Positions 4,654 through 30,763 of a DNA stretch of 31,306 nucleotides are shown here, piece by piece (position 1 is the first letter of the stretch; the number at the start of each line of letters is the position of its first letter). Made by a program: the position numbers and the translations under genes. Below the pieces are notes generated by a model, which did no database searches, was not told where the DNA came from, and was given only the letters and a program-made list of their open reading frames with translations. This stretch comes from a virus. The DNA is taken from positions 1 to 31,306 of IMG/VR virus record IMGVR_UViG_3300049216_000612; one strand, 5' to 3'.

Positions 4654-4787
4654 GAAAGAAAGCGGTTCTTTTTTGAAAAAAAGAACCAAAAAACTTTTGC
4701 TCATGAGTCCACGGCGGTTTCAACGGCATGGTCTAAATTAAAAGAAGTTTTTTGCTTCTTTTTTTCAAAAAAGAAGTTCTTTCTTTC
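4654..4787. repeat. Palindromic intergenic element R1
   Basis: Fills the gap between terL and portal. Outer arms are GAAAGAAAG and CTTTCTTTC. The left hairpin (4664-4687) pairs GGTTCTTTTTT with AAAAAAAGAACC; the right hairpin (4755-4776) pairs CTTCTTTTTT with AAAAAAGAAG. The inner left arm is AAAAAACTTTTG; the right is diverged (AAAAGAAGTTTTTT). The centre contains GGCGGTTTCAACGGCATGGT, closely shared with R5. Confidence 0.9.
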
Positions 4788-4801
4788 CTTTCAGGATTAA
4801 A

Positions 4802-6196
4802 ATGTTCGAAACCATCTGCGACACAGTGCCGGTTGATAGCGGCCTGCCGGCGCGCGTTCGGAGGTTGGATATCTACAGGCGCGTTCTCGAAGGCACGATT
4901 TATGACGGTTTGCCCTATGAATTTCATGAGGAGCGGAATGGCGCCGGGGAATATGTGCCGCTACGCATGAGACGGCCTTCCGTGCGTTACGGGTTGTGCC
5001 GGGTTGTGGTTGAGGATTCGGTGGCGCTGCTCTTCAGCAATGCGCATTTTCCCACGGTGGAGAGCCCGGATGCTGAACTCGCCGGGCGCCTGGCCGATGT
5101 GATCGCGGAGACGCGGCTGAATGAGACGATGATCGATGCGGCGATTCGCGGATCGATCGGCTCGGTCGCGATTTTGATGCGGGTTCTGCGCAACCGGGTG
5201 TTTTTTTCGGTGCTCGATAGCCAGTATCTGACGCCGCAATGGGATTTGAGTGCGCCGGATACGCTGAGCCGGGTCACCGAAGTCTACAAGGTGAAGGGGG
5301 CGGACCTAGCGGCGCAAGGCTATGCGGATACGGATCCGTCGACAATGTACTGGTTTCAGCGGGTCTGGGATGTCGACGCCGAGACATGGTTTTTGCCGTG
5401 GGAAGTCAATGATCCGCTGGCGGGGCCGGTGGTGGATGTGGCGCGAAGCGTAACGCATGGGCTGGGGTTCGTGCCGATCGTGTGGATCAAGAATTTGCCG
5501 GGCGGCGATGCGGTGGATGGGGCCTGCACGTTTCGACCGGCGATCGAGACGAGCATAGAAATCGACTACCAGCTCAGCCAGGCCGGGCGCGGATTGAAGT
5601 ATAGCTCCGATCCGACGCTGCTGATCAAGGAGCCGGCGGTTCGTGATTCGGAAATTATCAAAGGTGCCGGCAATGCGCTGGTGGTCTCCGATAAGGGCGA
5701 TGCCAAATTGCTGGAAATTGGCGGCACGGCTTGCGACGCGGTAATATCCTATGTGCGGACGCTGCGGGAATTCGCGCTTGAAGCCGTGCACGGCAATCGC
5801 GCGAGCGCTGACCGGTTGACCGCCGCGCAGTCCGGACGGGCGCTGGAGCTGATGAACCAGGGTTTGATCTGGCTGGCCGATAATTTGCGGATTTCCTATG
5901 GGGATGGCGGGGTGCTGGCCTTGCTGAAGATGGTCGTCCGGGCGTCTCGGGTTTTTCCCTTGCGGGTCACGGGCGAGGATGTGGGGCCGTTGAATGACGC
6001 GGCAAGACTGAACCTGCGATGGCCGCGCTGGTATCCGCTTTCGGCGGATGACCGGATGAAGGAGGCGCAGGCCTATTCGATGCTGGCGGGCGCGGGCCAA
6101 ATCTCGCGCAAGACGGCGGTAAAATCGCTCGCGGATGCGACGGGTGTGGCGGATATTGAGGCGGAACTCGATGATATCGATCAGGATGTCGCATGA
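4802..6196 (+). CDS. Phage portal protein
   Basis: The dodecameric ring at the capsid vertex through which DNA enters and to which the neck binds. At 464 residues it has the usual length. The pattern fits SPP1 gp6-like portals: an N-terminal RRLDIYRRVLEG helix, a beta-rich clip region with VFFSVLDSQYLTPQWD (about residues 136-151) and WFQRVWDVDAETWFLPWEV, then a long helical part with ETSIEIDYQLSQAGRGLKYS and ALELMNQGLIWLADNLRISY typical of the stem and crown. The start has CAGGA a few bases upstream. It follows terL and its stop overlaps the next start (ATGA), so it is translationally coupled to the scaffold-like gene. Confidence 0.88.
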   Translation: MFETICDTVPVDSGLPARVRRLDIYRRVLEGTIYDGLPYEFHEERNGAGEYVPLRMRRPSVRYGLCRVVVEDSVALLFSNAHFPTVESPDAELAGRLADVIAETRLNETMIDAAIRGSIGSVAILMRVLRNRVFFSVLDSQYLTPQWDLSAPDTLSRVTEVYKVKGADLAAQGYADTDPSTMYWFQRVWDVDAETWFLPWEVNDPLAGPVVDVARSVTHGLGFVPIVWIKNLPGGDAVDGACTFRPAIETSIEIDYQLSQAGRGLKYSSDPTLLIKEPAVRDSEIIKGAGNALVVSDKGDAKLLEIGGTACDAVISYVRTLREFALEAVHGNRASADRLTAAQSGRALELMNQGLIWLADNLRISYGDGGVLALLKMVVRASRVFPLRVTGEDVGPLNDAARLNLRWPRWYPLSADDRMKEAQAYSMLAGAGQISRKTAVKSLADATGVADIEAELDDIDQDVA

Positions 6197-6585
6197 CGGA
6201 TGAGACCAGGGAGCCGGTTGAGAACTGGCAAGCACGGGCCGAGACGGCGGAAGCGGCACTTGCCGCGGCCCGCGCGCAAGCCGAGGAAAAACTCATCCGC
6301 GCGGCGTTGAAGGCCGAGGCGATCCGGGCCGGGATGATCGACCTGGATGGGCTGAAATTGCTCGATCTGACGCAGGTCACGGTTGATGAGAATGGAGACG
6401 TTGCCGAGTCTTCTTCGATTTTCGCACGTTTGAAGCGCGCGAAGCCGTGGCTGTTCGGCGGGGCGACGTCGTCCTCGGCCGCTTCTCACGCGCCGAAGCC
6501 GGAGCCGCCTCGGCCACGCCAGGCCAGCGAGTTGAGCCATGAGGAATGGCTGGCGGCGCGGGCGGCGTTGATAAAACGGCGCTAA
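6193..6585 (+). CDS. Putative scaffold/capsid-assembly protein
   Basis: A 130-residue charged protein. Residues about 8-50 form an alanine- and glutamate-rich coiled coil (WQARAETAEAALAAARAQAE). The middle, residues 50-75, holds DLDGLKLLDLTQV; a proline-rich linker follows, then a basic end (LAARAALIKRR). Small coiled-coil proteins with a basic C-terminus between portal and capsid are typical scaffolds (P22, GP20-like), where the basic tail binds coat subunits. It overlaps the portal stop by four bases (ATGA). Identity rests on shape and position, not on a catalytic motif. Confidence 0.65.
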   Translation: MTDETREPVENWQARAETAEAALAAARAQAEEKLIRAALKAEAIRAGMIDLDGLKLLDLTQVTVDENGDVAESSSIFARLKRAKPWLFGGATSSSAASHAPKPEPPRPRQASELSHEEWLAARAALIKRR

Positions 6586-6614
6586 GCCGCGCTTTTCAAA
6601 ATTTCGGGATGGTC

Positions 6615-6652
6615 GCTCCGCCGGCGTTCTGCCGGTCCGGAGCTTATTTGTT
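6615..6652 (+). terminator. GC-rich hairpin with T-rich tail before capsid gene
   Basis: GCTCCG (6615-6620) and CCGGC (6621-6625) pair with GCCGG (6631-6635) and CGGAGC (6638-6643), giving an 11-bp stem with a five-base loop and a two-base bulge, followed by TTATTTGTTTT. This looks like an intrinsic terminator or attenuator between scaffold and capsid. Since transcription must reach the capsid gene, partial read-through, antitermination or a protective 3' end are possible. Confidence 0.55.
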
Positions 6653-6679
6653 TTCGTAAACCAATAAGGATATGGGCTG

Positions 6680-8002
6680 ATGGGTATTCAAAATTTTCCG
6701 GCCGCGCTGCAGCCGATTATCCAGCAAGGGTTTCTGGAGCGCGAATTTGAGACGTCACTGAAATCGCGGCTCGGCTATCGCCTGATCGCGGATCGTGAGG
6801 AGTTTGCAGTTGGGATCGGCGAAACGCTGACCAAGACGCGCGCCGGGTTGAAGCCGAGTGTGACGACGCCGCTGGCGGCCGCGACCAACACGAATCTCGA
6901 TAACGGGCTGACGGCGACGAATTGGGGCGTCGAGCAGTATACGATCACGCTCAATTTCTATGCGGCGACGCAGGATTTGAACATGGTAACCAGTCGCGTC
7001 GGCATCGCCTCGCAATTTTTGCAGAATGCGGCGACGAATGGCGAGCAGGCGGCCCGCAGCCTGGATGAGTTGGCGCGCAATGCGCTGTTCGCCCCGTATT
7101 TCGGCGGCAATACGCGGGTGATCGCGACGCTGGGTTCCACCGGGCCGAGCGTTGACGTTGACGATGTGCGCGGATTTCAGACGGTGTTTGTGGATGGCGT
7201 GCAGCAGAGCGTGTCCGCGACGTATCCGATGACCGTGACGGTAGGAGCGAACGCGTATACGCTGATCGGGGTGACGCCGGATGCGACCAATATTTCCAGC
7301 GCTCCAAACGGGATTTCCGGTGCGCTACTATTCTCCGGGAGCGTATCAGTGGCCGATGGCACGGCGGGAAATGCGGTGAAGGCTGCGACAGCAAGCTCCA
7401 TTGTGCGGCCGGCCGGGCGCGCCACGACGTCGGCTTTGCAGGCGACCGATACGCTGGCGATGAGCAATCTGCTCGATGCGGTGGCCTTGTTGCGGCGCAA
7501 TGCGGTACCTTTGGTTGACGGTGTCTACAACTGCTATCTCGATCCGGTATCGGCGCGCCAGTTGTTTGCCGATTCGGATTTCAAGCAATTGTTCCAGGGC
7601 GCGACGTCGTCCAACCCCGTGTTCCGGCAAGGGATGGTGAGTGATTTCCTGGGGCTGCGCTTCATCACCACCACCGAGGCGTATGTGCAAAGCCATCCGA
7701 GCATTGCCGGGCTCTATGTGCGGCGGCCGATTGTTTGCGGCCAGGGGGCGTTGATCGAGGGTGATTTTGCCGGGATGGCGGCGGATGACGTGGCGCCGAA
7801 GGACAGCCTGGTGAACGTGATCGATAATGTCGCGATGGTGACGCGCGAGCCGATTGACCGGCTGCAGCAGATCATCGCGCAGAGCTGGTATTGGATTGGC
7901 GGTTTCTGCGCGCCGTCCGATACCACGACGACGCCGACGACGGTGCCGACGGCGACGAATGCGAATTACAAACGGGCCGTTATGATTGAGCACATTGGCT
8001 AA
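6680..8002 (+). CDS. Major capsid protein (HK97-fold, N4 gp56-like)
   Basis: The shell subunit. The 440-residue protein shows the coat layout of the N4 gp56/P22-like group: an N-terminal arm, EQYTITLNFYAATQDLNMVTSRV (about residues 85-107) as an E-loop/spine region, ARSLDELARNALFAPYFGG (125-143), and a C-terminal core with YNCYLDPVSARQLFADSDF and FLGLRFITTTEAYVQ. Residues about 150-240 are beta-rich and glycine/threonine-rich with no helix, and look like an inserted surface domain comparable to the P22 I-domain. AAGGA lies upstream of the ATG. Position after portal and scaffold supports the call. The insertion is inferred from composition only. Confidence 0.88.
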   Translation: MGIQNFPAALQPIIQQGFLEREFETSLKSRLGYRLIADREEFAVGIGETLTKTRAGLKPSVTTPLAAATNTNLDNGLTATNWGVEQYTITLNFYAATQDLNMVTSRVGIASQFLQNAATNGEQAARSLDELARNALFAPYFGGNTRVIATLGSTGPSVDVDDVRGFQTVFVDGVQQSVSATYPMTVTVGANAYTLIGVTPDATNISSAPNGISGALLFSGSVSVADGTAGNAVKAATASSIVRPAGRATTSALQATDTLAMSNLLDAVALLRRNAVPLVDGVYNCYLDPVSARQLFADSDFKQLFQGATSSNPVFRQGMVSDFLGLRFITTTEAYVQSHPSIAGLYVRRPIVCGQGALIEGDFAGMAADDVAPKDSLVNVIDNVAMVTREPIDRLQQIIAQSWYWIGGFCAPSDTTTTPTTVPTATNANYKRAVMIEHIG

Positions 8003-8019
8003 AAGTGCGTTTGGAAACA

Positions 8020-8158
8020 GAAAAAGCGCTTCTTTTTTTTGCAAAAAAAGAAGCAAAAAAACTCTCATTCATTGAGGGCTGTGGCACGATCCAGGCCAAC
8101 GCCCGCAAAGAGCAAAAGTTTTTTGGTTCTTTTTTTCAAAAAAGAACTTTTTCCTTTC
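8020..8158. repeat. Palindromic intergenic element R2
   Basis: Lies between capsid and decoration-like genes. The left hairpin (8028-8054) is GCTTC...GAAGC; the right hairpin (8126-8147) is GTTC...GAAC, so the two stems use different but self-consistent bases. The left inner arm is degraded (AAACTCTC) while the right is intact (CAAAAGTTTTTT). The centre shares GGGCTGTGGC with R4. Confidence 0.9.
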
Positions 8159-8183
8159 TTCCTTTAATTTGAGGACATCAACC

Positions 8184-8492
8184 ATGGCGACTGGTTCGAC
8201 GCAACCGTTCAGGCCGGCCGGTACGGCGACTATTGCGGCATCGACAAGTTCCGGAAATATCGCGCTGATTGGTGGCGGTACGGCGCTGCTGGTGTATAAC
8301 GCGGCATCCGAAACGGCTTTTTTCCGTCTGGGCGCGTCTTCCGATCTGGCGGCGTCCGCCGCCGATACGCCGGTGCCGCCGGGGCAGATGATGCTGGTGG
8401 ATGGCGGGCCGTTTATTCGCTATGCCGCGGCCATATTGGCATCGGGCTCCGGCAATTTGTATTTCACCATTGGCGATGGGGACACGTATTGA
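8184..8492 (+). CDS. Small structural protein, possible head decoration
   Basis: A 102-residue protein, rich in alanine, glycine, serine and threonine, predicted all-beta (TATIAAS, NIALIGGGTALLVYN, AFFRLGAS, LYFTIGDGD). No catalytic motif or signal peptide. ATG 8184 follows GAGGA at 8171-8175; an upstream start at 8169 would overlap that site. Its place right after the capsid gene is where decoration or capsid-stabilising proteins lie in many phages. I do not recognise the family; a decoration role is inferred. It ends two bases before the next start. Confidence 0.65.
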   Translation: MATGSTQPFRPAGTATIAASTSSGNIALIGGGTALLVYNAASETAFFRLGASSDLAASAADTPVPPGQMMLVDGGPFIRYAAAILASGSGNLYFTIGDGDTY

Positions 8493-8493
8493 G

Positions 8494-8889
8494 ATGTCCG
8501 CCAGTGTTCTGACGGGTTTCACGGACGCGCAGAAGGTGGATGTTCGGCGATTCTGCGGCTATCCGGCCTATGGCGCCGGGGCCGCGGGGTTTGAGTCCTG
8601 GCGGTTTTTTCAGGCTTTTGGAATGCTGGAATATCGGCTGAACAACCTGGCGCCGGCGGAGATTGCGGTGACGCTGCAATATATCTCCACGCTGGCGGCG
8701 TTGGAGGCGGCGATCCCGCCGGCTTCGGATAATCTGGACACCGACAGCGCGGCGGCCTGGACCCATAACGCGAACGAAACCGTGGATCGCGCGGCGTTGT
8801 TTGATGCGTGGCGGCGGCGGCTTTGCGGGTTTCTGGGCGTGCCGCCGGGGCCGGCGCTGGCACAGGCCGGCGTGACATTGGTTATGTGA
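8494..8889 (+). CDS. Putative neck/head-tail connector protein
   Basis: A 131-residue mostly helical protein starting MSASVLTGFTDAQKVDVRRF, with amphipathic helices in YRLNNLAPAEIAVTLQYIST and RAALFDAWRRRLCGFLGV. The start is one base after the previous stop, and its stop overlaps the region of the next start. Helical proteins of this size between the capsid block and the tail genes are usually adaptor/connector subunits that ring the portal. No known family is recognised; the role comes from position. Confidence 0.6.
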   Translation: MSASVLTGFTDAQKVDVRRFCGYPAYGAGAAGFESWRFFQAFGMLEYRLNNLAPAEIAVTLQYISTLAALEAAIPPASDNLDTDSAAAWTHNANETVDRAALFDAWRRRLCGFLGVPPGPALAQAGVTLVM

Positions 8890-8891
8890 GC

Positions 8892-9536
8892 ATGGATGGG
8901 GTGCGGTTGGCGGACCGGCTGGCCTATGGCGCCGGCTGCGCGGCACGGCGGGTCGGGTTTTTGCACGATGCCTATCGGCCGAATGGGCCGATTCGGCCGA
9001 TGGATTTGATGAATCGGTTTTTGCGGCTGGCGGTGGCTTATGTGCTGCCGGGCGGCAGCGTGGGCGCGCCGAGCGGGTTTGGCGTGCCGTTCCGCCAGGC
9101 CTGGGCGGATTGGAGCTATTTGCAGGTTGGCGATTACCTGGCCGGACCGAAAGGCGTGGTGTTTGTGGCGGCGATCGAGCCGCCGAAGCCGATGCTGGTG
9201 GTAATGACGAATGCCGAAATTGCGTTATGGCGGCCGGCAGCGCCGGTTCTGGCGGGCGTGAACCCGTATGGCGCGGTGCTGCCGGGGACGAGCACGGCGC
9301 TGATGGCTGGGTTTCCCGCGAGTTTGCTGGCGGGCGGATTGTCCGACCGGACACATGCGGGATTGCCGGATGATACGAAAGTGCCAGGGTTTGTCTGCAT
9401 GGTGCCGGTTGTGGCGGGTGTGCAGCCGCTGGTGGCGGACATCCTGGTAGACGCCGCCGGCGCGCGATATGTGGTGAACGCCGTGGAGGCCGTGAGCGGT
9501 GTCTGGCGGCTTTCGATGAATCAGGCGGTGAGCTGA
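8892..9536 (+). CDS. Putative head-tail joining protein
   Basis: A 214-residue protein beginning MDGVRLADRLAYGAGCAARR, with GFLHDAYRPNGPIRPMD and LPGGSVGAPSGFGVPF in the N-terminal part and a beta-rich remainder (GVVFVAAIEPPKPMLVVMTN, VPGFVCMVPV, AGARYVVNAVEAVSGVWRL). ATG 8892 sits three bases after the previous stop; GTG 8886 would overlap it. The stop overlaps the next ATG in TGATG, so translation is coupled. Comparable prophages carry such a protein between connector and tail terminator, so a neck or head-completion role is likely but not proven. Confidence 0.6.
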   Translation: MDGVRLADRLAYGAGCAARRVGFLHDAYRPNGPIRPMDLMNRFLRLAVAYVLPGGSVGAPSGFGVPFRQAWADWSYLQVGDYLAGPKGVVFVAAIEPPKPMLVVMTNAEIALWRPAAPVLAGVNPYGAVLPGTSTALMAGFPASLLAGGLSDRTHAGLPDDTKVPGFVCMVPVVAGVQPLVADILVDAAGARYVVNAVEAVSGVWRLSMNQAVS

Positions 9537-10357
9537 TGGCGGACCAGGCTGATGTTGAGACCGCTCTGGTGGCGATTATTGCGAATGCGCTGTATCCGGC
9601 GGGCACGGCGGCGGCCAGCGCGGTTGGGTGTACGTGCCGGGTGTATCGGGGGATGCCAAGCGCGCCGGTTTTGGGGCCGGACCTGGCGGCGGGGGCTGTG
9701 CATGTGACTGTGGATGCCGGGGACAGTGTGAAGAATGTGACGCGCTATCCTAGGCGCTGGCAGGCGGTGGCGCCGGTGCCGGCGAGCCTGACGGTGACTG
9801 TCGGGCCGCAGAGCGCAAGCTTTACGGGCAGTTGCGCGGTAGGGCAACTCGCCGGTGTGGCGGTGAATGGGGCGTTGTTTCCCTACGCCGTGCAAGCGAA
9901 TGATTCGCCGGCGACCGTGGCGAGCAATCTGGCGGCGCAACTGCGTGCGGCGGGATGGCTGGTCGAATATTCCGGCGCCACCATCACCCTGCCGAACGCG
10001 GCCATGTTCACCGCGCGGGTGGTGAGCGGTGCAAATGCCTTGCAAGAGATCAAGCGGCAGGTTCAGGATTTTTTGATCACATTATGGTGCCCGGCGCCAC
10101 CGGTGCGCTATACGGCGGCCGCGTTGATTGATGCGGCGCTCGGCGGCTTGCAGTTCATCGCACTGGCGGACGGATCCTCGGCGCGGTTGATCTATGCCGG
10201 AAGCGACGCGGAAGATGGCGCAGCGGATGCGACGCTTTACAAACGAACTCTGCGTTACAACGCGGAATATCCGACGACGCTGGCACAGGTTGAGCCCGCG
10301 ATGTTGTTTGGAACGGTGGGGTATCAGGCGGATGGGGTTTTTGTTTCGAGGCTTTAA
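9536..10357 (+). CDS. Putative tail terminator/completion protein with inserted domain
   Basis: A 273-residue protein. The N-terminus (VETALVAIIANALYPAG) and C-terminal half (YTAAALIDAALGGLQFIALA, then LYKRTLRYNAEYPTT and a beta end) fit tail-completion proteins that cap the tail and bind the neck. Residues about 83-165 look like a separate inserted beta domain (SLTVTVGPQSASFTG, GQLAGVAVNGALFPYAV, VEYSGATITLPNA), of the kind added to the surface of tail proteins. It starts at the TGATG overlap with the previous gene and is the last gene before R3. Function is from gene order: the next block opens with the sheath. Confidence 0.6.
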   Translation: MADQADVETALVAIIANALYPAGTAAASAVGCTCRVYRGMPSAPVLGPDLAAGAVHVTVDAGDSVKNVTRYPRRWQAVAPVPASLTVTVGPQSASFTGSCAVGQLAGVAVNGALFPYAVQANDSPATVASNLAAQLRAAGWLVEYSGATITLPNAAMFTARVVSGANALQEIKRQVQDFLITLWCPAPPVRYTAAALIDAALGGLQFIALADGSSARLIYAGSDAEDGAADATLYKRTLRYNAEYPTTLAQVEPAMLFGTVGYQADGVFVSRL

Positions 10358-10498
10358 GTAAGTAAGAGGTTCTTTTTTGAAAAAAAGAACCAAAAAACTT
10401 TTGGTTATTGGCCCTCGGGAGCGAAACAATCCAGGCCTAAATTATCAAAAGTTTTTTTGCTTCTTTTTTTTCAAAAAAAGAAGCGCTTTCTTCTACTT
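10358..10498. repeat. Palindromic intergenic element R3
   Basis: Begins directly after the tail-terminator stop. The left hairpin (10368-10391) is GGTTC...GAACC, the right hairpin (10459-10484) GCTTC...GAAGC. The inner arms are AAAAAACTTTTG and CAAAAGTTTTTT. The element ends just upstream of the small gene at 10517. Confidence 0.9.
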
Positions 10499-10516
10499 CC
10501 ATAGAAGGATTTTCGA

Positions 10517-10657
10517 ATGACATATCATCTGGTGGTGCTGCGGCCCTTTGAGGGCTTTGGCCGCGGCGATGTAATTAAGGACGCCGCCACCGTACAGAAA
10601 ATTCTGGCCGGCCCGCAGGCCGGTTTTGTTGTGCGCGTCAGCACGGGAAAGGATTGA
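10517..10657 (+). CDS. Small protein upstream of the tail sheath
   Basis: A 46-residue open frame that a length cut-off would miss. It starts MTYHLVVLRPFEGFGRGD, ends VVRVSTGKD and is preceded by AGAAGGA at 10502-10508, eight bases before the ATG. Its stop lies four bases before the sheath start. Mu-like phages have a short gene (DUF2635/Mu gp38 type) at this same place; this protein shares size, basic/aromatic character and position, but homology is not shown. The strong ribosome binding site and tight coupling support a real gene. Confidence 0.65.
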   Translation: MTYHLVVLRPFEGFGRGDVIKDAATVQKILAGPQAGFVVRVSTGKD

Positions 10658-10661
10658 GCCG

Positions 10662-12212: not shown

Positions 12213-12349
12213 GAAGCAAGACCTTCTTTTTTTGAAAAAAAAGAAGCAAAAAAACGTCTGGTCCTGCGGGCTGTGGCGCCGGCGTCGCCCAAGCCCCCAG
12301 TGAGCAAAAGTTTTTTGCTTCTTTTTTTCAAAAAAGAAGTTCTTGCTTC
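12213..12349. repeat. Palindromic intergenic element R4
   Basis: Starts on the base after the sheath stop. Outer arms GAAGCAAG and CTTGCTTC are perfectly complementary. The left hairpin is at 12223-12246 (CTTC...GAAG), the right at 12318-12339 (CTTC...GAAG). The left inner arm has drifted to AAAAAAACGTCTG. The centre shares GGGCTGTGGC with R2. Confidence 0.9.
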
Positions 12350-12366
12350 CTTTATGGGAGTTTTTC

Positions 12367-12795
12367 ATGCCGTATAATACGTTTTCTGTTGGCAATGACT
12401 GCCAGCTTGTGGTGATGGGCCCGTTCGGGCGGGTGGATCTGGCGCATGTGACGGGGTTTGAGGCGCGCCAGGTGACTCAGGCGGTGCGGGTGGACCGGCT
12501 GGATGGCGTGCAGCTGGGAGCGGAATTGCCGAAGGGGTGGTCCGGCACGTTTACGTTGGATCGGGGCTCGCCGGCGGCGGATGATTTTATTGCGGCGATC
12601 GAGCAAGCGTATTTTGCGGGGCAGTCGATTGCGGCGGGAACGCTGTACCAGTATGTGAATGAGCCGGACGGGTCGACCTCGACGTATCAGTTTTCCGGTG
12701 TGGTGTTCAAGCTGACTTCGGCGGGGGCGTATAAGGGGGATGCGCCGGTGGCGCAGCGGCTGGACTTTTTTGCGTCCAGCCGGGTGAGCGTTTGA
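12367..12795 (+). CDS. Tail tube protein
   Basis: The 142-residue inner tube subunit of the contractile tail. The beta-rich sequence (NDCQLVVMGPFGRVDLAHVT, RQVTQAVRVDRLDGVQLGAE, GWSGTFTLDRGS, then YQFSGVVFKLTSAGAYKGDA) fits Mu/P2-type tube proteins. GGGAG at 12356-12360 precedes ATG 12367 by six bases; a farther ATG-like start at 12343 falls in R4. It lies between sheath and tail-assembly chaperone, the expected place, and its TGA overlaps the next ATG (TGATG). Confidence 0.88.
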   Translation: MPYNTFSVGNDCQLVVMGPFGRVDLAHVTGFEARQVTQAVRVDRLDGVQLGAELPKGWSGTFTLDRGSPAADDFIAAIEQAYFAGQSIAAGTLYQYVNEPDGSTSTYQFSGVVFKLTSAGAYKGDAPVAQRLDFFASSRVSV

Positions 12796-20821: not shown

Positions 20822-20830
20822 GGACCACGC

Positions 20831-22225: not shown

Positions 22226-22240
22226 TGAAAGGTCTCCCAG

Positions 22241-22723
22241 ATGACCACGCCGGCAAACCACACATGGCGGCCCTCCAACGCGCGCTACGTGCAGATCGAC
22301 GGCTTCGTGCCGACCCCGCGCGGCCCCAGCGTGCCACCCGCCACGCCGTTGACGTGGCCGGCCAAGGATCCGGGCGACACGCTGGATTATGTCTTCGACA
22401 TCTCGCCGGCATTGACCGCCAATCCGGGCGACACGATCGCGGCGCTCGATGTCGCCATTAGCCCCGCCAACCCGGGGGACCTCACCCTCGCCTCGGCCAC
22501 CGCGGATGGCGCCTGGGCGGTGCTTTGGCTAACACTGGGTCAGCCGCAGACCACCTACACGGTCACCGTCACCATCACCACCACCGGCGGGCGCACGCTG
22601 GCGCGCAGCATCGCGCTGCCGGTGGTGGCGCTCGCCTCCGTCCCGGCGCCGCTATCGGCGCTGACCACGCCTTCCGGCCAGGCGCTGACCGACCCGACCG
22701 GCACGCCGCTCACCACCATATAA
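22241..22723 (+). CDS. Fibre-tail adaptor-like protein
   Basis: A 160-residue beta-rich protein. WRPSNARYVQIDGFVPTPRG, then TPLTWPAKDPGDTLDYVFDI and an Ig-like pattern (TTYTVTVTITTTGGRTLARS) resemble the short adaptor proteins that connect fibres to baseplates in many Acetobacteraceae prophages; this is remembered, not searched. A good AAAGG lies upstream. It ends nine bases before the tailspike start, supporting a shared role. Confidence 0.65.
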   Translation: MTTPANHTWRPSNARYVQIDGFVPTPRGPSVPPATPLTWPAKDPGDTLDYVFDISPALTANPGDTIAALDVAISPANPGDLTLASATADGAWAVLWLTLGQPQTTYTVTVTITTTGGRTLARSIALPVVALASVPAPLSALTTPSGQALTDPTGTPLTTI

Positions 22724-22732
22724 GGGTCATCC

Positions 22733-25291
22733 ATGCCGACCATTGGACAATTGCCGCCGGCAAATTCGGTGGCCGATACGGATATGCTGCCGATTTTTCA
22801 AAATGAGGAGACGCTGGCGGCAACCCGCGCGCAGGTGCTGGCCGGCTATCAGCCGGCGCTCAGCGTGCCGCAGAATACCCTGCTCGGCGGTATCGGCCCC
22901 GGCACCGCCGCGCCCGCGCCGATCGCCATCGGCGCCAATCTCGCGCTGAACGGGTCCACACTCTCCGCCAGCGCCGCGCCGTTCAACATCGCCGCGCTGC
23001 CGGCCGGCGTGATCCCAGGTGGCGGCGATATCGTGCCGCTCGGCCAGAGCGGTAATAATGTCGGCGTCGCCTACGCCAATTTCATGGCCGGCATGGGCGG
23101 TGTCGCCGGCCTGCCAGGCGGCGCCCTGACGGCCCAGGCGAGCGCCGGAACCGCCACCCGGACAATGGCGGCGCTGGCGATGAACGCCGTGTCGATCGAG
23201 GATTTCGGCGCCGCCGGCGACGGCGTCACCGATGACAGTGCCGCATTGCTCGCCGCCATCGCCTCCGGCAACCCGGTCCGCTTCGGCGCCAAAACCTACG
23301 CCATCGCCGGCGAATGCGACATCGCCGGCGCCGCCTGCACGCTGCTCGGCGTGCCGGGTCTCACCGTGCTGACGCGCAGCGCGCAATCCAGGTCCGGCAC
23401 ATCCTCCCCCGCCGCCTGGATAAGTTTTTCAGCCGCCACGCTGTTCATCGACGGTATTATTTTCGACGCCAATGCGAGCATCACCAGCAATACCAGCACC
23501 GTCGCGGTGCAGGCGGCCTGCGCGAAATCACTAATCTTCCGCAGTGTCTTTCGCAACGCCAAGGGGACGAGTAACGGCTCCGGTCTCACCTTCGCCGCCA
23601 GCGATCCGGCGATCACCCAGCACCATGTGGATGATTGCGAATTCTACGGCAACGCGGCGCATGGGGTGAACATCGCGGCGACCGACGCGCTCAGCATCAC
23701 CAATTGCCGCGCGCATGACAATGGCGGCAACGGCATCAACGGCAATAGCGCGGACCCCGCCTTCATCCTCAAGATTCGCAACCTGCATGTCGTCGGCAAT
23801 ACGTGCTGGAACAATGTCTGCGGCATACTGGTCGGCAATTTCAACACGACGAATCGAAACAACGACATCATCTATGGCAACACCAACCCGGACGTTCTGG
23901 GCGCGCTGATCGCCTCGAATAATTGCTATTCGAACGGCAATTATGGCATTTATATTTCCGGCCGCAACGTTCTCGTCAGCGGCAATCTCTGCGCCAATAA
24001 CAGCACGGTGTTTTCCGGTGGCGCCGGCATTCTTTGCGATACCGGCTACTGCAAGGTCACCGGCAACATGGTCACCGGCGCATCCGCCTTCGGCATCGAT
24101 TGCGGCGGCTCGATCTATACGGAGGTGGCGGATAACTACATCAACGGCGCGCTGGTCGGCCTGAACATCGGCGGCGGTCTGAACTGCATGGCGCGCGGCA
24201 ATTTCATCCAGGATTGCACGGGCGTCGGAATCCAGGTGCAGAACATTGAATCCGACGGGATCGGCGATGATTTCAACCTGGCCTGCTTCAATCTCTCGAT
24301 CGTCGGGAACTGGATCAATTACGGCGGTTCGGCACTCGGGATCATGATCCGCGACGCGCCGCAAAATCTGGTGGTCATTGAAAATATCCTTCTGGCGCAG
24401 CCTAGCGCCAGCGCCACCAACGCGATCTCCGCCTATACCGACAGGCTCCTGCTGCGCGATAATCTGCTCGATTACATCACGCGCTGGGCGGTCAACCCGT
24501 CTTTTGTAAATGGTGTCTACACGCTGGTCGTGCCGGATATCGCGGATGTCGTCAGCGTCTCGCAATCCAGCGCGCCGATCGCCAGCATCGTCACCGCGCA
24601 GGGGGCGGCGACGGTTGGCCAGATCCTGTTCTGCAAGGTGATCAATGGCGGTAGCGGCTATAGCAGCGCCTCGGTCAATTTTACCGGCACCGGCAGCGGC
24701 GCCGCCGGGACCGTCTGGCTGTCCGGCGGAACGGTGCTCGGCATCCAGATGACCTCGTTCGGCGCGGGCTATGGTCCCGGCACCACCGCCACCATCACCG
24801 GCACGGGCAGCGGCGCCACCTGCACCGCGCAGGTCGGCCTGCCGGTCTGGCAGGACCACGCCTTGACCGTCGATTGCCTGTGCAGCGTCACCTTCGCGGC
24901 GGCGGGAAGCTCCCCGGCGCAGAATAACTGGACCGGCGCCCCGATCACGATTCCGGCCGGCGCCTCGATTGACTGGCTCGGCAATTTCGGCGGCTGGCGC
25001 GCGGCCCGCTTTACCCAAAGCGATTACGTTTCGCCGAATGGCGATGGCAGCGTCACGCTGCGCACGCAAAGCGGCGATATTTCGTTGCATCCCGCCGGTG
25101 GCGGCGCGGTGCGACTGCTTTCGGATACCGAGCCGACGGGTGCGGTGGAGCTGATCGGCCGCGGCTCGCCGTTGAATGCGGTTTCCGCGCCGCCTGGCTC
25201 GACATTCCGGAACTTGAACGGTGGCGTCGGCGCGACGCTCTGGGTGAAGCAGGCTGGTACGGGAAATTCGAATTGGGTTGCTGTTGCTTGA
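22733..25291 (+). CDS. Right-handed beta-helix tailspike (pectate-lyase-like)
   Basis: An 852-residue tail protein. Residues 1-80 are an anchor domain (PTIGQLPPANSVADTDMLPI) shared with the next fibre. VSIEDFGAAGDGVTDDSAAL at 153-172 is the classic start of pectate-lyase-like beta helices, followed by many short turns rich in Asn and Gly to about residue 600. A tandem tail (NGGSGYSSASVNFTGTGSGA, FGAGYGPGTTATITGTGSGA) and a trimeric-looking C-terminus end the protein. It probably binds or degrades a surface polysaccharide. AAGGG precedes ATG 22733. R8 follows the stop immediately. Confidence 0.88.
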   Translation: MPTIGQLPPANSVADTDMLPIFQNEETLAATRAQVLAGYQPALSVPQNTLLGGIGPGTAAPAPIAIGANLALNGSTLSASAAPFNIAALPAGVIPGGGDIVPLGQSGNNVGVAYANFMAGMGGVAGLPGGALTAQASAGTATRTMAALAMNAVSIEDFGAAGDGVTDDSAALLAAIASGNPVRFGAKTYAIAGECDIAGAACTLLGVPGLTVLTRSAQSRSGTSSPAAWISFSAATLFIDGIIFDANASITSNTSTVAVQAACAKSLIFRSVFRNAKGTSNGSGLTFAASDPAITQHHVDDCEFYGNAAHGVNIAATDALSITNCRAHDNGGNGINGNSADPAFILKIRNLHVVGNTCWNNVCGILVGNFNTTNRNNDIIYGNTNPDVLGALIASNNCYSNGNYGIYISGRNVLVSGNLCANNSTVFSGGAGILCDTGYCKVTGNMVTGASAFGIDCGGSIYTEVADNYINGALVGLNIGGGLNCMARGNFIQDCTGVGIQVQNIESDGIGDDFNLACFNLSIVGNWINYGGSALGIMIRDAPQNLVVIENILLAQPSASATNAISAYTDRLLLRDNLLDYITRWAVNPSFVNGVYTLVVPDIADVVSVSQSSAPIASIVTAQGAATVGQILFCKVINGGSGYSSASVNFTGTGSGAAGTVWLSGGTVLGIQMTSFGAGYGPGTTATITGTGSGATCTAQVGLPVWQDHALTVDCLCSVTFAAAGSSPAQNNWTGAPITIPAGASIDWLGNFGGWRAARFTQSDYVSPNGDGSVTLRTQSGDISLHPAGGGAVRLLSDTEPTGAVELIGRGSPLNAVSAPPGSTFRNLNGGVGATLWVKQAGTGNSNWVAVA

Positions 25292-25445
25292 AAGTAAGGA
25301 CTTCTTTTTTTGAAAAAAAAGAAGCAAAAAAACTTTTGCTCCTTGAGCCCGAGGCCATGTCGCCCCCGGCGGCCAACTAACAAAAGTTTTTTGCCGCTGC
25401 CCGCGGAGGGCTTCTTTTTTTCAAAAAAGAACCTCTTGCTTTCTT
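25291..25445. repeat. Palindromic intergenic element R8, with inserted mini-hairpin
   Basis: Begins at the tailspike stop. The left hairpin (25301-25324) is CTTC...GAAG. The right arm is interrupted by about 17 extra bases (25394-25410) containing CCGC-TGCCC-GCGG, absent in the other eight copies. The right hairpin has GCTTC opposite GAACC, one mismatch, as if from two copies. Confidence 0.88.
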
Positions 25446-25466
25446 CCTCTTGCAGGATTCTTGTCC

Positions 25467-27623
25467 ATGACAACCATCGCCCAACTCCCCGCCGCCGCCT
25501 CGGTCGGCCCCGCCGATCTGCTGCCGATATCGCAGGCGGGCGAAACCTATTGCGTTTCGGTGTCGGAACTCACCGCGACATTGCAGCCGCTGATCAGCAT
25601 CCCGACCGGCGAGTTGCTCGGCCGCAACAGCGCCGGCGCCGGCATGCCGGAATCGGTCGCGGTCGGCGGCGGCCTTACGCTCAGCGCCGGCACGCTGGCG
25701 GCAAACGGCGCTGACCATGCGGCGTTTCCGCTGCAGACGGCGATGTCGCTCAGCGACAATCTGGTCATCGAGTCCGGCGTGTCGCCCGGCTTGCTCGCGG
25801 TCACCGCCTTGCGTGGGCTGTTCAGCGCCGGCGGCGGCATCAGCATCGACGGCGACGGCGTCATCGCGGTCACCGAATCCGGCATTGCCGGCCCGGCCGG
25901 GCCAGCCGGCGCCGCCGGCGCGACGGGGCCGGCCGGTCCGCAGGGACCGGCCGGCCCGACCGGCCAGGGCCTGCTGCCGCCGGCGACCAATAATTCCGCG
26001 AGCACGATCGGCGGCGCCGACTATGTCGCGATCTGGCAGAATGGCGCCAATGCCTGGATTCCATACGGCCAGCTCATCGGCGGCCAGACCATCAACCAGT
26101 TGCCGGCCGCCGCGCCTGCTGCCGATAGCGACACGCTGCTGGTGGCGCAGGGTGGCAGCGACCTGCATGTGCAAAGCCTGGGTGCGCTCTGGACCTATGT
26201 GCAGGCGAAGCTGCCCAGCCTGAAGACGAATGTCGTCGAGCTGACCGCCAATACCGTGCTGGACGGCACGTCGCATAACGACCGGCTGCTGATCGCGAGC
26301 CAGCCGCTGACGCTGACCGCCAATTTCACCAATATGGGCTCCGGATTTTCCTGCACGCTGATCAATCTCAGCGCCGGCGCTGTCACGATGGGCACCGGCA
26401 TCACCTCCGGCTCGGGCGGCGCGTCGCTGCCGCCGGGCGGGTCCACGACGCTGGTCGGCATCACCTATTCCGGCGGCTCGCTGGTGTGGTGGAGCGGCAT
26501 CGTGCCAAACGCGCCGACCCTGACCATCGGCTCGATTTCCGCGCCGGCGCCGGACACGGCGTTCACGATTTCCGGCGGCATTTTTAACGACGCCCCGACC
26601 GCGCTCGATTATTCCATCGATGGCGGCGTCACCTGGGCGGCGGCGCCAAGCCCGGTGATCAGCGCCAATGCCTTCAGCTTCGTCGTGCCCGGCTTGAGCG
26701 CCGGCACCTACACAATACGGGTGCGCGACCATGCCGACCCGGCGGTGCTTGCCAGTTCCAACAGTTTCACCGTCATCGCGCCCTCGATCGCCTTCGCCGG
26801 TCTGCCGGCGAGCGTGACTCTGGGTGCGCCGCTCAGCGTCGCCGGCACGGTGTCGCCCGCCAGTGCGGCGGTCAGCCTCGGCGTGTCGGCCAGTGCCACG
26901 GTGGCGCCCTCATCCTGGGTCAACGCCACGGTCAGCGCCGGAAGTTGGACCGCGACCGTGACTCCCGGCACGAGCGGCACGATCTTTCTCTGGGCGCGGC
27001 AGACATCCGCCACGACGGTGCAGGCCATCTCCGGCGCCATCTCCGTGGTTACCGCCTCGCTCACGGTCACCGCACCCGCCACCGGCACCGCCGGAACCGC
27101 GCTCACGGCGACCGGCACCGTCTCGCCCGCCGGCGATGCGGTCAACGTTCAGCTGTCCAGCCAGAACACCGCGGCGCCGAGCACGGGCTGGACCGCCGCC
27201 GCCAACAGCGCCGGCACGTTTTCGGCCTCGCTCACACCGCCCGCAGCAGGCACTTATTATGCCTGGGCGCAGGACCCTACGACCGGGTTGGTCGCCGTAT
27301 CCGGCGCCATCACGGTCACGGCGCAGTCTTCGGTCACGTTCAGCTTCAATAACCTCGGCGGCACCAACAATGCCGGCCAGGGCGCGGTCGCGCTCAATGG
27401 CGGCATATCCCCGCCACAGAACATCGCGACCGAAATCAGCCTGTCATTGTCCAACACGGTGGCGCCGACATCCGGCTGGCAGGCGGCCAGCATCTTCAAC
27501 AACAACGAAAACTGGGCGATTTATTATTCGACGCCGGCGGCGCCCGGCAATTACTATGTCTGGGCGCAGACCGCCGCCGGCGCCAGCCTCGCCGTGTCGA
27601 GCTTCACCGTCGCGGTCGTCTGA
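25467..27623 (+). CDS. Tail fibre with collagen-like and Ig-like repeats
   Basis: A 718-residue fibre. Residues 1-75 match the tailspike anchor (TIAQLPAAASVGPADLLPIS). A collagen-like run of Gly-X-Y triplets covers residues 141-168 (GPAGPAGAAGATGPAGPQGP). A second anchor-like segment is at 208-250 (TINQLPAAAPAADSDTLLVA). Residues about 351-718 hold four Ig-like repeats, for example GTAGTALTATGTVSPAGDAV with GTYYAWAQD near each end. ATG 25467 is chosen since AGGA lies nine bases upstream; TTG 25461 is too close. It stops directly before the next start, so fibre and esterase are coupled. Confidence 0.85.
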   Translation: MTTIAQLPAAASVGPADLLPISQAGETYCVSVSELTATLQPLISIPTGELLGRNSAGAGMPESVAVGGGLTLSAGTLAANGADHAAFPLQTAMSLSDNLVIESGVSPGLLAVTALRGLFSAGGGISIDGDGVIAVTESGIAGPAGPAGAAGATGPAGPQGPAGPTGQGLLPPATNNSASTIGGADYVAIWQNGANAWIPYGQLIGGQTINQLPAAAPAADSDTLLVAQGGSDLHVQSLGALWTYVQAKLPSLKTNVVELTANTVLDGTSHNDRLLIASQPLTLTANFTNMGSGFSCTLINLSAGAVTMGTGITSGSGGASLPPGGSTTLVGITYSGGSLVWWSGIVPNAPTLTIGSISAPAPDTAFTISGGIFNDAPTALDYSIDGGVTWAAAPSPVISANAFSFVVPGLSAGTYTIRVRDHADPAVLASSNSFTVIAPSIAFAGLPASVTLGAPLSVAGTVSPASAAVSLGVSASATVAPSSWVNATVSAGSWTATVTPGTSGTIFLWARQTSATTVQAISGAISVVTASLTVTAPATGTAGTALTATGTVSPAGDAVNVQLSSQNTAAPSTGWTAAANSAGTFSASLTPPAAGTYYAWAQDPTTGLVAVSGAITVTAQSSVTFSFNNLGGTNNAGQGAVALNGGISPPQNIATEISLSLSNTVAPTSGWQAASIFNNNENWAIYYSTPAAPGNYYVWAQTAAGASLAVSSFTVAVV

Positions 27624-29762
27624 ATGACCTTTCTCTACACCGCGCTAGGCGCGCCGCTGTTGAGCGGCGCGCGGTCCCGCGCTTTGGTGGCGACCTTGCC
27701 GGCGGGCACCGCAACCACGCCGCCCGTGTTTGCCGGCCCCTACCCTTCCGCCATCTCCGGCCTGTCCGGCTGGTGGGATGCCGGGCTGCTGAACGGCATG
27801 GCGGATGTGAACGGCGCGCCGGTCGCCGCGGCCAATACCCTGGTCAGCCAGATCATCGACAAATCCGGCAACGGCGTCGCTCTATCGCCCTACCATATCG
27901 CCGCCGACACTTCGCCCGCCGTCACCTTGGCAACGACACGGCTCAACGGCTTCCTAGGCGGCGCCGGCGCGCCGGATACCAGCATCGTCACCTACGGCCC
28001 CAGCCTGGACCCTGACTGGGGCCTGGCGCATCCCGGCTTCGAGCTTGGTTCGGGCGCGGCCTGGACGCGCTATCTGGTCTGGACCCGCCCCAACCCTCGC
28101 CAGGGCACATACTACGTCAATGCCAGCGCGATCCCGCTGCTGCACGCCACCGAAGGCGGCCAGACCATCCTGCAGGCCGACAGCGCAGGCGCCAACCTGA
28201 CGCTGTTCCCCGGCACGGCAAGCCAGACCGTGCTCTCCGCCACGCTGGCGCGGCGGCATTCCCACGCCGTCATCCTGCGCCACACGCCCGGTCATGGCGT
28301 GGATGCCTGGCTGGATGGCGCCGCGGTGGCAAGCGCCGTTACCAACCCTCTGGCCGCCAGCGCCAACGGGCAGGTGCTGTTTCTGCATGACGGCAGCATC
28401 CAGGGCTCGGCGCAATGCTGGTTCCACGAGGCCGCCAACTGGGAACGCGCGCTCAGCGCCGCCGAGATCGCCACCCTCATCGCCGCCCAGGGGCGCTGGG
28501 TGCTGGGCGCCAGGCGCGGCGTCAGCCTGCTGGTCATGGGCCAGTCCAACGCCGCCTGGTTCACCAATGCCGGCGCGCCGGCCGCCATGGCGCAGGGCAT
28601 CGCCTGGTATCTGGGTGCTGCCGCCTATGCCGCCGACGCGCTGATCGCCGGCGGGGAAAATTCGCCGTCGCGCTACTCGATCATCTCCGGCCACCCGATC
28701 TCCAACTCCTCCCCGCCGCTGTTTCCGCCGGGCGCCCGCAACGGCACGTTCCTCACCAATCCCGGCGACGGCTCCGGCCCCTCGACCTGGAGTGGCGGCC
28801 CGGATTTCACCGCCCTGACCGACTACCTCACCGGCGGCGCCGCCCTCGTCTCCGCGGACGATGAAGCCGATATCGCCTTCATCGTCTGGCCCTGGAGCGA
28901 GCAGGACAGCACGATGCCTTATAGTAACAAATCGCTCTACAAGGGCACGGTCCTGCAATTGCTGGCGCTCACCCGCGGGCTGCTCGGCCGCGACGCCGCC
29001 TCGCTGCCGCTGCTCGCCTGGAACGCGATCCCCTACGAGACCAATGAAGGCGTGCAGATGGTTCGCGAATCAATCGCCGATCTGGCCGCCGATCCGGCGA
29101 ACAACATCCTCATCTTCGCCGCGCAGACCGCGGATTCCAACCCGCTCAACGCCAGCTACGACCCCAGCACCGGCCTGTTTTCCGGCGGCGACCCGCAACA
29201 CCGCGACCAGCCCGATTTGCTGCGCTATGGCCGCATCGGCGCGCTCGCAGCCGGCCGCGCCGCGATATTTAACGGGCTGAGCGACACGATTCCCGCAACC
29301 GCCCTGCCCGCTTCCGGCCTGCCGGCGCAAGGCGGCCCGCGGATCACCCATGTCTACCGCGCCTCGGCCACGAACCTCATCCTGACGATCGCACATGATT
29401 CCGGCACCGACCTGATCGTGCCCTTGCAGGCAGCGAACGGCGCCGGCTTCACGGTGATGGATGGCGGCAGCATCGCCAGCCCCGGCGCGATCATCAACGC
29501 CATCGCCGCCGCGCGGATCGACGCCACGCATCTCTCGGTGACGCTGGCTGCGCCCATGACGAATCCGTCGGCGGATATTTTGTTGTTCTATCCCTATGGC
29601 AGCAAGCAAATCGGCCGCGGCGACGCCGTCACCGACAACGCCGCTCTGCTAGCACCGCCGGCAAACTGGAACATCGCCGGCGACCTGGGTTCCGCCTGGT
29701 CGATCAACCTGCCGCTGCAGGCCACCTGCTACCCGATCATTCTTTCCGACCAACCAGACTGA
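27624..29762 (+). CDS. Tail protein with LamG-like and SGNH esterase domains
   Basis: A 712-residue protein. Residues 45-290 have a concanavalin/LamG-like beta sandwich (SAISGLSGWWDAGLL, GVDAWLDGAAV, WERALSAAEIATLIAAQ). Residues 300-550 form an SGNH/sialate O-acetylesterase-like domain: LLVMGQSNAAWF with Ser308 in GQSN, WSEQDS (424-429) in place of the usual QGESD, and DPQHRD with Asp523 and His526. A C-terminal beta domain follows. It probably removes acetyl groups from capsule or O-antigen at the tail tip. The start follows the fibre stop with no gap. Substrate is unknown. Confidence 0.87.
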   Translation: MTFLYTALGAPLLSGARSRALVATLPAGTATTPPVFAGPYPSAISGLSGWWDAGLLNGMADVNGAPVAAANTLVSQIIDKSGNGVALSPYHIAADTSPAVTLATTRLNGFLGGAGAPDTSIVTYGPSLDPDWGLAHPGFELGSGAAWTRYLVWTRPNPRQGTYYVNASAIPLLHATEGGQTILQADSAGANLTLFPGTASQTVLSATLARRHSHAVILRHTPGHGVDAWLDGAAVASAVTNPLAASANGQVLFLHDGSIQGSAQCWFHEAANWERALSAAEIATLIAAQGRWVLGARRGVSLLVMGQSNAAWFTNAGAPAAMAQGIAWYLGAAAYAADALIAGGENSPSRYSIISGHPISNSSPPLFPPGARNGTFLTNPGDGSGPSTWSGGPDFTALTDYLTGGAALVSADDEADIAFIVWPWSEQDSTMPYSNKSLYKGTVLQLLALTRGLLGRDAASLPLLAWNAIPYETNEGVQMVRESIADLAADPANNILIFAAQTADSNPLNASYDPSTGLFSGGDPQHRDQPDLLRYGRIGALAAGRAAIFNGLSDTIPATALPASGLPAQGGPRITHVYRASATNLILTIAHDSGTDLIVPLQAANGAGFTVMDGGSIASPGAIINAIAAARIDATHLSVTLAAPMTNPSADILLFYPYGSKQIGRGDAVTDNAALLAPPANWNIAGDLGSAWSINLPLQATCYPIILSDQPD

Positions 29763-29774
29763 GGGACTCGCAAT

Positions 29775-30110
29775 ATGGAGTCAGAATCGGTTTCGCTGCT
29801 GCGATCCGATGTCGCGGCGATGCGCGGCGATATCGGCAAGTCGCGGCAGGATTACGGCGTGCTCGACGCGCGCGTCGACGCGCTGGAGAACTGGCGCGAA
29901 CGCTATCTGGCGCAGGACGACCAGATCGTCGCCAAGCTGTTCACCAAGGTCGACGAGCTAACCGCGGCGCTCAGCGAGTTCCGTTCCAATCTCTCGCATC
30001 TTTCCGGCGAACGCGATGCGGAGCGGCGCGTCACCATGACCATCGTCAGCCTGCTCTCAGCACTTTGCGGCGGCCTGGCGGCGAATTTCCTGCATATTTC
30101 GGGGCACTGA
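29775..30110 (+). CDS. Coiled-coil protein with C-terminal membrane segment
   Basis: A 111-residue protein with heptad-like helices (LLRSDVAAMRGDIGKS, DARVDALENWRERYLAQDDQ, LFTKVDELTAALSEFRSNLS) and one hydrophobic segment at about 87-107 (MTIVSLLSALCGGLAANF). Such C-tail-anchored coiled coils occur in phage lysis cassettes as holin or spanin partners. GAGGG precedes the ATG. It ends one base before the endolysin start, consistent with a lysis role. The exact family is unknown. Confidence 0.65.
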   Translation: MESESVSLLRSDVAAMRGDIGKSRQDYGVLDARVDALENWRERYLAQDDQIVAKLFTKVDELTAALSEFRSNLSHLSGERDAERRVTMTIVSLLSALCGGLAANFLHISGH

Positions 30111-30111
30111 C

Positions 30112-30624
30112 TTGGACAATTTTTCGCGCTGCATCGCGTTTACTCTAGCGCAGGAAGGCGGCTATTCGAACAACGCCGCCGACCCGGGCAACTGGACCGG
30201 CGGCGCCGTCGGCCAGGGGGCTTTGCGCGGCACGAAGTTCGGCATCAGCGCCGCCGCCTATCCGGCGCTCGACATCGCCAGCCTGACCCAGGCCGATGCC
30301 GAGACGATTTATCGGCGTGATTATTGGTCTGCCGTCTTAGGCGACCAATTGCCGTTTCCCATCGCCCTGGTGGCGTTCGACGCGGCGGTGAATTCCGGCC
30401 CGCGCAAAGCGATCATCTGGCTGCAGCAGGCGGCCGGCGCGGCGGCTGACGGCGCGTTAGGACCGGCGACGCTGGCCGCGCTTCGCGCCGGCAATCCCGC
30501 CGCCATCGCGCGCGAGGCGCTGGCGCGGCGGCTGGAATTCTGCTCGCACCTGCCGGCCTGGGCGAATTTCGGGCTTGGCTGGACCAGGCGGGTTATTTGC
30601 CTGGCTTACGAAATTACGAGTTAA
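30112..30624 (+). CDS. Endolysin, GH108 muramidase
   Basis: A 170-residue cell-wall hydrolase with the GH108 (N-acetylmuramidase) motif QEGGYSNNAADPGNWTGG, where Glu15 is the catalytic acid, followed by GTKFGISAAAYPAL and the PG-binding-3 end (FDAAVNSGPRKAIIWLQQAA, DGALGPATLAALRAGNPAAI). No signal peptide is seen, so it needs a holin. It starts at TTG 30112, one base after the previous stop, with GGGG seven bases upstream. R9 follows directly. Confidence 0.93.
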   Translation: MDNFSRCIAFTLAQEGGYSNNAADPGNWTGGAVGQGALRGTKFGISAAAYPALDIASLTQADAETIYRRDYWSAVLGDQLPFPIALVAFDAAVNSGPRKAIIWLQQAAGAAADGALGPATLAALRAGNPAAIAREALARRLEFCSHLPAWANFGLGWTRRVICLAYEITS

Positions 30625-30763
30625 GGCAAGCAAGATGTTCTTTTTTAAAAAAAAGAACCAAAAAACTTTTGCTCCTTGGCCCCGAGGGGCGTCGCGCCCG
30701 GCGGCCCATTAGCAAAAGTTTTTTTGCTTCTTTTTTTTCAAAAAAAGAAGTCCTTCCTTTCTT
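30625..30763. repeat. Palindromic intergenic element R9
   Basis: Starts on the base after the endolysin stop. The left hairpin (30637-30658) is GTTC...GAAC with an all-A/T loop; the right (30726-30750) is CTTC...GAAG. Inner arms AAAAAACTTTTGC and GCAAAAGTTTTTT are intact. The centre shares GCTCCTTG and CCCGAGG with R8. Confidence 0.9.

Follow-up and report, generated by a model that had tools for sequence, protein, structure and literature searches.

Palindromes between the late genes of a phage-like cluster are probably copies of a mobile repeat of Acetobacteraceae

Why should a single operon be interrupted nine times by the same kind of palindrome? The virus record IMGVR_UViG_3300049216_000612, analysed over its positions 1 to 31,306 (31,306 nt; hereafter the window), carries nine such elements, R1 to R9, in the junctions of a co-directional row of phage-like genes. 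An earlier note had proposed either RNA processing or stability control for the phage, or a host-wide mobile palindrome tolerated only in junctions. The second proposal is strongly supported by copy number, by polymorphic junctions and by the background in a rich host genome. We consider it probable that R1 to R9 represent a non-autonomous mobile palindrome, dispersed host-wide in Acetobacteraceae, that is mobilised in trans, folds as a clover and is tolerated between genes.

Results

The nine elements share one architecture

The element is an inverted doublet of half-elements, about 140 bp long. Each half consists of an outer arm (AAGNAAG), a small A/T hairpin and a core arm (CAAAAAACTTTTG), in that order; a variable centre follows, and then the mirror image. 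R1 to R9, roughly 140 bp each, were recovered from the window as a nine-copy repeat family. The core AAAAAACTTTTG, sought on both strands with up to 2 mismatches, matched 20 times compared with 1.32 ± 1.17 times in 100 shuffles, none of which reached 20; two of the matches (at 802 and 3278) fall outside R1 to R9. Both core arms are exact in five copies (R3, R5, R6, R8 and R9). R1 has 2 mismatches in the right arm, R4 has 2 and R7 has 1 in the left arm, and the left arm of R2 has diverged by more than 2 mismatches. The centre measures 41-45 nt in the eight copies in which both arms could be located.

The palindromes were found where the earlier note had placed them, and, as it had claimed, all nine fill gaps between co-directional genes, 3′ of a stop codon and 5′ of the next start. 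The element begins within about 4 nt of the stop in seven of the nine, R2 and R6 being more distant. All gaps above about 20 nt in the cluster are filled by elements, except g3|MCP (94 nt; MCP, major head protein) and g10|g11 (643 nt).

The element is abundant and patchily distributed in Acetobacteraceae

A scan of genome contigs returned at least 120 matching stretches, and the titles among the 80 matches listed were Acetobacteraceae, Rhodospirillales, Acidobacteria, Asaia and a few others. The earlier note had suggested counting the element in host genomes. This was done with a half-element pattern of 23 nt, one mismatch being allowed, in 16 whole genomes reached via element-bearing loci. 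The pattern matched 1,079 times in genome G001 (4.2 Mb, the richest observed), 817 times in G002, 471 times in G003 and 7-279 times in the other 13, while the reversed pattern, used as a control, gave no match in any of the 16. At least one match was present in 66 of 249 genomes of G001's family, many of them with few, and G001 had 1,079 matches compared with 16 in G062, which the tool places in the same genus. Dispersal through the family is therefore wide and patchy. Whole copies within G001 are near-identical, centre included (83-93% in the best-listed matches on the same strand), and the family is abundant and patchy in Acetobacteraceae and was apparently amplified recently. Among the papers listed in searches of the open literature, none described it.

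Copies also occur on plasmids. Two Pseudoroseomonas cervicalis plasmids have matches of 120 and 126 bp at 76% identity; a gap of 130 bp between convergent genes is filled by one, and the other lies between co-directional genes. On an Acidiphilium plasmid a match of 44 nt falls within a small gene annotated as hypothetical, amid a row of ABC transporter genes. The phage collection gave short matches only, covering 16-27% of the query. One of these, in a Microviridae record from cattle blood (H26, MG945182.1, 5908-5941), is exact over 34 nt of the left hairpin and core of R5.

Halves that belong to doublets outscore singlets taken away from contig ends (median 46.5 for 72 halves compared with 39.5 for 35 singlets, p 0.004). 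Singlets are also common, making up 41 of the 91 groups in G001.

The density in the window is that of a rich host

G001, surveyed over its contigs 2 to 19 by number with a simple home-made gene caller, holds 91 elements in 291 kb, or one per 3.2 kb; the window holds nine in 31.3 kb, or one per 3.5 kb. After 24 of the 91 had been set aside (11 at an edge, 7 inside a called open reading frame (ORF), 6 in a long gap), elements were present at 39 of 147 co-directional, 15 of 47 convergent and 13 of 42 divergent junctions. As G001 is the richest genome observed, the comparison shows the window's density to be unremarkable for a rich host and does not extend to every host. The same cluster of phage-like genes, retrieved from 19 genomes and in many cases shortened by contig ends, carries 4 elements in 19 kb in G001 and 0-2 elsewhere. 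Among four hosts with 0 or 1 pattern matches, only G202 has a copy of the element in its cluster.

Because the density is that of a rich host, the positions are polymorphic (below) and junction orientation makes little difference, the elements do not look like a device of the phage. The idea that they form a phage-specific means of RNA processing or stability control accordingly loses ground. As an RNA device, the transcribed elements would be cut by RNase III or would protect upstream messages and so set the ratios of late proteins. Strong single-sequence RNA folds were obtained for all nine copies and the hairpins covary, which suits this explanation, but the same element occurs genome-wide, and in G001 co-directional junctions are not favoured.

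Relatives mostly lack the element at the junctions filled in the window

The 29 window proteins were compared by tblastn with 194 viral loci, 37 of which had been fetched for holding the element. Counts are of distinct junction sequences, and a junction was scored as filled only when both arms lay within 2 mismatches, so that degenerate copies, such as that at TerL|portal of locus L129, were scored as empty. R1 (4654..4790, + strand, as for all nine), between the TerL and portal genes, occupies a junction that is empty in most relatives (filled in 3/60). The corresponding counts are 0/82 for MCP|g5, where R2 (8020..8160), with its divergent left core arm, lies 3′ of the major head protein gene; 1/80 for g7|g8a, where R3 (10356..10494) precedes the small gene g8a; and 2/84 for the junction of the tail sheath gene and g9, which holds R4 (12213..12351). 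R6 (17961..18098), between g17 and g18, has counterparts in 3/91, R7 (22082..22225), between the tail-fibre-like gene g22 and g23, in 3/67, and R8 (25290..25445), between g24 and g25, in 3/53. The counts cover neither g14|g15, which holds R5 (15927..16063), with the g14 stop codon (15929-15931) inside its outer arm, nor g28|g29, where R9 (30624..30762) follows the GH108 lysin-like gene g28. Relatives have a median gap of 10-22 bp at the junctions filled in the window, except at MCP|g5, where the assigned gene start was internal.

Conversely, some relatives have the element at junctions that lack it in the window: g3|MCP in 6/72, g20|g21 in 3/80, g23|g24 in 4/58 and g26|g27 in 1/26. That the same junctions lack the element in most relatives while others are filled in some is a further point against an RNA device. 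Among 118 viral groups, represented by one locus each, all 64 elements lay outside gene matches, and 79 of 108 related groups had no element at all. Close pairs of filled and empty sites were sought to fix the ends of the insertion, and the best pairs shown were only about 83-91% alike.

R8 carries 16 extra nt separating its right core arm from its right hairpin. This insert is nearly the reverse complement of a left-arm insert in a copy from locus L241, and the copy at the R8 junction of L240, the window's nearest relative, is without it. L240 also has copies at the junctions of R5, R6 and R7, the last of which is likewise represented in L144.

Other palindromes were observed in the same junctions. 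A second, GC-rich family (CCAGGGGGC..GCCCCCTGG) fills g3|MCP in L129, g24|g25 and g26|g27 in L126, and g17|g18 in L316. AAGNAAG lies within 2 nt of 9 of its 34 distinct hairpins (background 0.06%), and this family likewise had no description in the open literature among the papers listed. Another hairpin, GGCGTGGATGGCCGCTTTCGCGGCCATGACG-like, occupies junctions of L168, L188, L178 and L177 and resembles the CGTC-tagged repetitive extragenic palindromic (REP) sequences.

Covariation supports a clover fold

The earlier note had envisaged two RNA folds, two small hairpins plus an inner stem or one long stem. Both are possible for a single copy, and the long stem is indeed at its best in R7, which has the longest uninterrupted stem in single-sequence folds; covariation, however, supports the two small hairpins with inner and outer stems over the long stem. 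An alignment (A1) of 59 full elements was used, comprising 54 of 84 (core length 105-119) and R3, R5, R6, R7 and R9 of the window; R1 was included as L001, and R2, R4 and R8 were excluded. Under the clover model (two hairpins with an inner and an outer stem) 92.9% of cells are paired, and none of 500 shuffles reached the model's covariation score of 0.150 (shuffle mean 0.086), although covariation counts are inflated by relatedness among the copies. The single long stem pairs 88.4% of cells, was not above shuffles on any measure (373, 185, 186, 102 and 69 of 500 reached it, the last for the covariation score), and in 44 and 42 of the 59 sequences its two closing positions fail to pair. Each model outperformed its displaced versions in a sliding control, and the two have the inner and outer stems in common.

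The local hairpins are conserved and their closing pairs covary. With 338 of 815 half matches set aside as outside the strict pattern, the closing position in 415 distinct half-elements was G-C in 231, C-G in 150, T-A in 23 and other in 11. The base composition of 274 halves showed AAGNAAG, two variable bases and then the hairpin, with neither GTAG nor CGTC at the hairpin foot. For the outer arms, 28, 23, 8 and 49 of 2000 shuffles within hairpin classes reached the observed agreement at positions -1 to -4. When G-U pairs were allowed at position -2, agreement was 63/84, which no class-wise shuffle of 2000 reached, and this, too, is in keeping with an RNA device. Since the coupling shrank with shuffling inside hairpin classes, we claim it as modest only.

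RAYT genes are enriched in element-bearing genomes but seldom have the element in their flanks

We then asked whether the element is a true REPIN (an inverted doublet of REP sequences), moved by the RAYT transposases (REP-associated tyrosine transposases) present in some of the same genomes. The inverted doublet with a spacer, the better conservation of doublets and the clover fold all speak for this. With PF01797, RAYT genes had seemed absent from G001-G003. For G001 and G002 this was a false negative: an alignment (A2) of RAYT proteins from this bacterial family matched five times in G001, twice at full length, and once, partially, in G002. G003 had no RAYT match even with A2. RAYT-like proteins were found in 43 of the 249 genomes, the matches in two of these (G074 and G146) being weak and located in long ORFs of a different kind. 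RAYT-like genes are enriched among genomes with 10 or more element matches, G001 included (20/37 compared with 23/212, Fisher p 1.7e-8), an enrichment that may reflect shared ancestry; the remaining 17 of the 37, among them G003, had no RAYT match.

The flanks of the RAYT genes are less favourable to this explanation. In G161 the end of a full doublet is about 100 bp upstream of a RAYT gene, and in G035 a half-element ends about 90 bp upstream of one, but of 30 RAYT loci only 4 include the element within the flanks retrieved. The RAYT genes of G001, G048 and G013, examined on both sides, are flanked by palindromes that are GC-rich and differ in sequence from the element; at least one copy carries GTAG at its foot. 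Those of L481, L485 and L486, which PF01797 missed or scored weakly and the family alignment detected clearly, are flanked by GTAG-type GC-rich palindromes. We therefore call the element REPIN-like rather than a REPIN. A search of Rfam gave 32 matches up to E 5, none at the gathering score, chiefly to microRNA precursors and plastid psbA 3′-untranslated-region families; the best (E 1.6e-6) was to a microRNA family.

The phage-like cluster appears to be resident

The co-directional cluster that holds R1 to R9 (3290..31306, + strand) encodes TerL, portal, scaffold, major head protein, sheath, baseplate, fibres and a GH108 lysin, with a CI-like repressor gene at the left end of the window. Its gene order recurs in six other genomes. 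The major head protein matches at E ≤ 1e-20 in 110 of 249 genomes, and exactly once in 102. In G236, G202 and G161 the cluster is bordered on one side by a Cpn60/Cpn10 pair (92-96% identical) and on the other by further conserved host genes (polyphosphate kinase, AI-2E transporter and AIR synthase-like genes, 75-87% identical; Pfam names were assigned on G236). G221 and G185 have a common, different left flank, and the listed flank genes of G074 match no other. No integrase or replication gene was recognised among the window proteins searched, which were all but g8a, g10, g14, g16, g19, g27 and two upstream ORFs. The median ratio of nonsynonymous to synonymous substitution rates (dN/dS) was 0.14 in 69 of 70 comparisons, a few of which may count one contig more than once because they involved its overlapping loci.

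These data suggest that the cluster is resident and maintained. It could be a contractile-tailed gene transfer agent or a domesticated prophage, and free-phage ancestry or activity is possible. In a peat-moss study, phage-like contigs are described as aligning to single regions of Acetobacteraceae genomes (PMC12142844). The earlier note had also argued that simple terminators would silence the phage; because the cluster is resident in many genomes, this premise is weakened.

Two features of the window stand apart. Positions 13100-15790 (g11-g13) form a variable region of lower GC content, in which g11 and g12 matched only 1 of the 194 viral loci and g13 matched 51; g13 also has the highest dN/dS (0.56). 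The GC skew changes sign at about 20000-24000, inside the co-directional operon, being positive before about 22 kb and negative after.

Discussion

Polymorphic sites, near-identical whole copies within a genome and placement between genes are observed directly, and a mobile host repeat would account for them as follows. The doublet would be the copied unit and would adopt the clover fold in its single-stranded state, and new copies would be inserted by a trans-acting enzyme. Insertions within genes would be lost by selection, and those between a stop codon and a ribosome-binding site would persist. The resident phage-like operon of the window would have collected copies like other operons of a rich host.

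Several results weigh against this reading. The earlier note had set conservation of position against neutral insertion, and it holds in part: most junctions are empty in relatives or copies lie elsewhere, but in L240 all four covered window elements are at the same junctions. Counted over aligned letters, the L240 copies are 86-91% identical to those of the window; the gaps in R6 and R8 are sizeable. Insertions therefore stay in place and diverge along with the cluster, and as these four are old, a retained function there stays possible. Seven of the 91 G001 elements lie inside ORFs called by the home-made caller, and the rich hosts G002, G003 and G016 have no element in the part of the cluster fetched (5-10 kb each). 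No recurrent ORF that might mark an autonomous parent was found among 38 distant half-element pairs in partial sequence, and around the soft ends of 84 full elements no position pair was consistently above shuffles as a target-site duplication. Finally, RNAalifold, working by energy, still draws the long stem, so that our preference for the clover rests on covariation.

How do the alternatives fare? That the element is a true REPIN moved by the RAYT proteins seems unlikely to us, given the palindromes of other sequence at the RAYT genes. An RNA device of the phage, for which the old insertions common to L240 and the window and the cleavage of Correia elements by RNase III and RNase E effects on enterobacterial repetitive intergenic consensus (ERIC) sequences, as described in part of PMC10969869, provide further arguments, is distinctly improbable. 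That the elements are intrinsic terminators, acting in both directions and dispersed as a normal component of gene ends, is very hard to sustain: A-tract, stem and T-tract are present in both directions, predicted calls are somewhat above shuffles (27 compared with 19.0 ± 4.5; 17 compared with 12.2 ± 3.5) and many long-stem terminator-like calls are the element's hairpins, but nine copies lie inside one co-directional cluster and, in G001, divergent junctions are filled about as frequently as convergent ones.

A more speculative extension of the mobile-repeat explanation, which we put forward tentatively and with some doubt, is that clover-folding mobile palindromes form a new class with at least two sequence-unrelated families. 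The A/T-rich family and the GC-rich CCAGGGGGC...GCCCCCTGG family would have in common the AAGNAAG outer arm and the alternation of outer stem, hairpin and inner stem, so one machinery may recognise architecture and tag. Such a machinery would not recognise sequence and would leave no target duplication.

Repeats in a contig classed as viral may be repeats of the host, which calls for caution. The study of the element has also drawn attention to a widespread, resident, domesticated-looking phage-like cluster with a contractile tail.

Comparison with known systems

Like classical miniature inverted-repeat transposable elements, the element is short and non-coding, with inverted repeats and many copies; unlike them, it has no fixed-length target-site duplication in the 84 full elements. 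Correia elements have defined terminal repeats and a direct repeat, whereas the present element has soft ends and no target duplication was seen; it was compared with Correia and ERIC elements by description, not by sequence. With both it shares, as far as the relevant part of PMC10969869 describes them, short length, an intergenic position and a copy number that varies greatly between related genomes, the transcripts of those repeats being affected by RNases.

Like the GTAG- and CGTC-tagged REPs described in a portion of PMC3733652, it is built of small palindromic repeats, and GTAG-type repeats adjoin three RAYT genes here; the hairpin foot of the element, however, carries neither tag. The same portion of that paper gives CGTC repeats as missing in Acetobacteraceae.

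The closest likeness is to REPINs. The element differs from them in its A/T-rich hairpins, its AAGNAAG outer arm and its second core arm, and it is not the repeat that flanks the three RAYT genes examined on both sides. REPINs are characterised, in the sections of PMC3116915 concerned, as extragenic, high-copy inverted doublets of REPs with a variable spacer, the doublets being better conserved, and a supplementary legend (Bertels and Rainey 2011, PMC3116915) distinguishes a clover form from a stable hairpin. The present element shares the inverted doublet of small palindromes, the variable spacer, the extragenic position, the high copy number, the better conservation of doublets and the alternative folds, and its covariation is of help in deciding between the two forms, long hairpin and clover, discussed there for REPINs.

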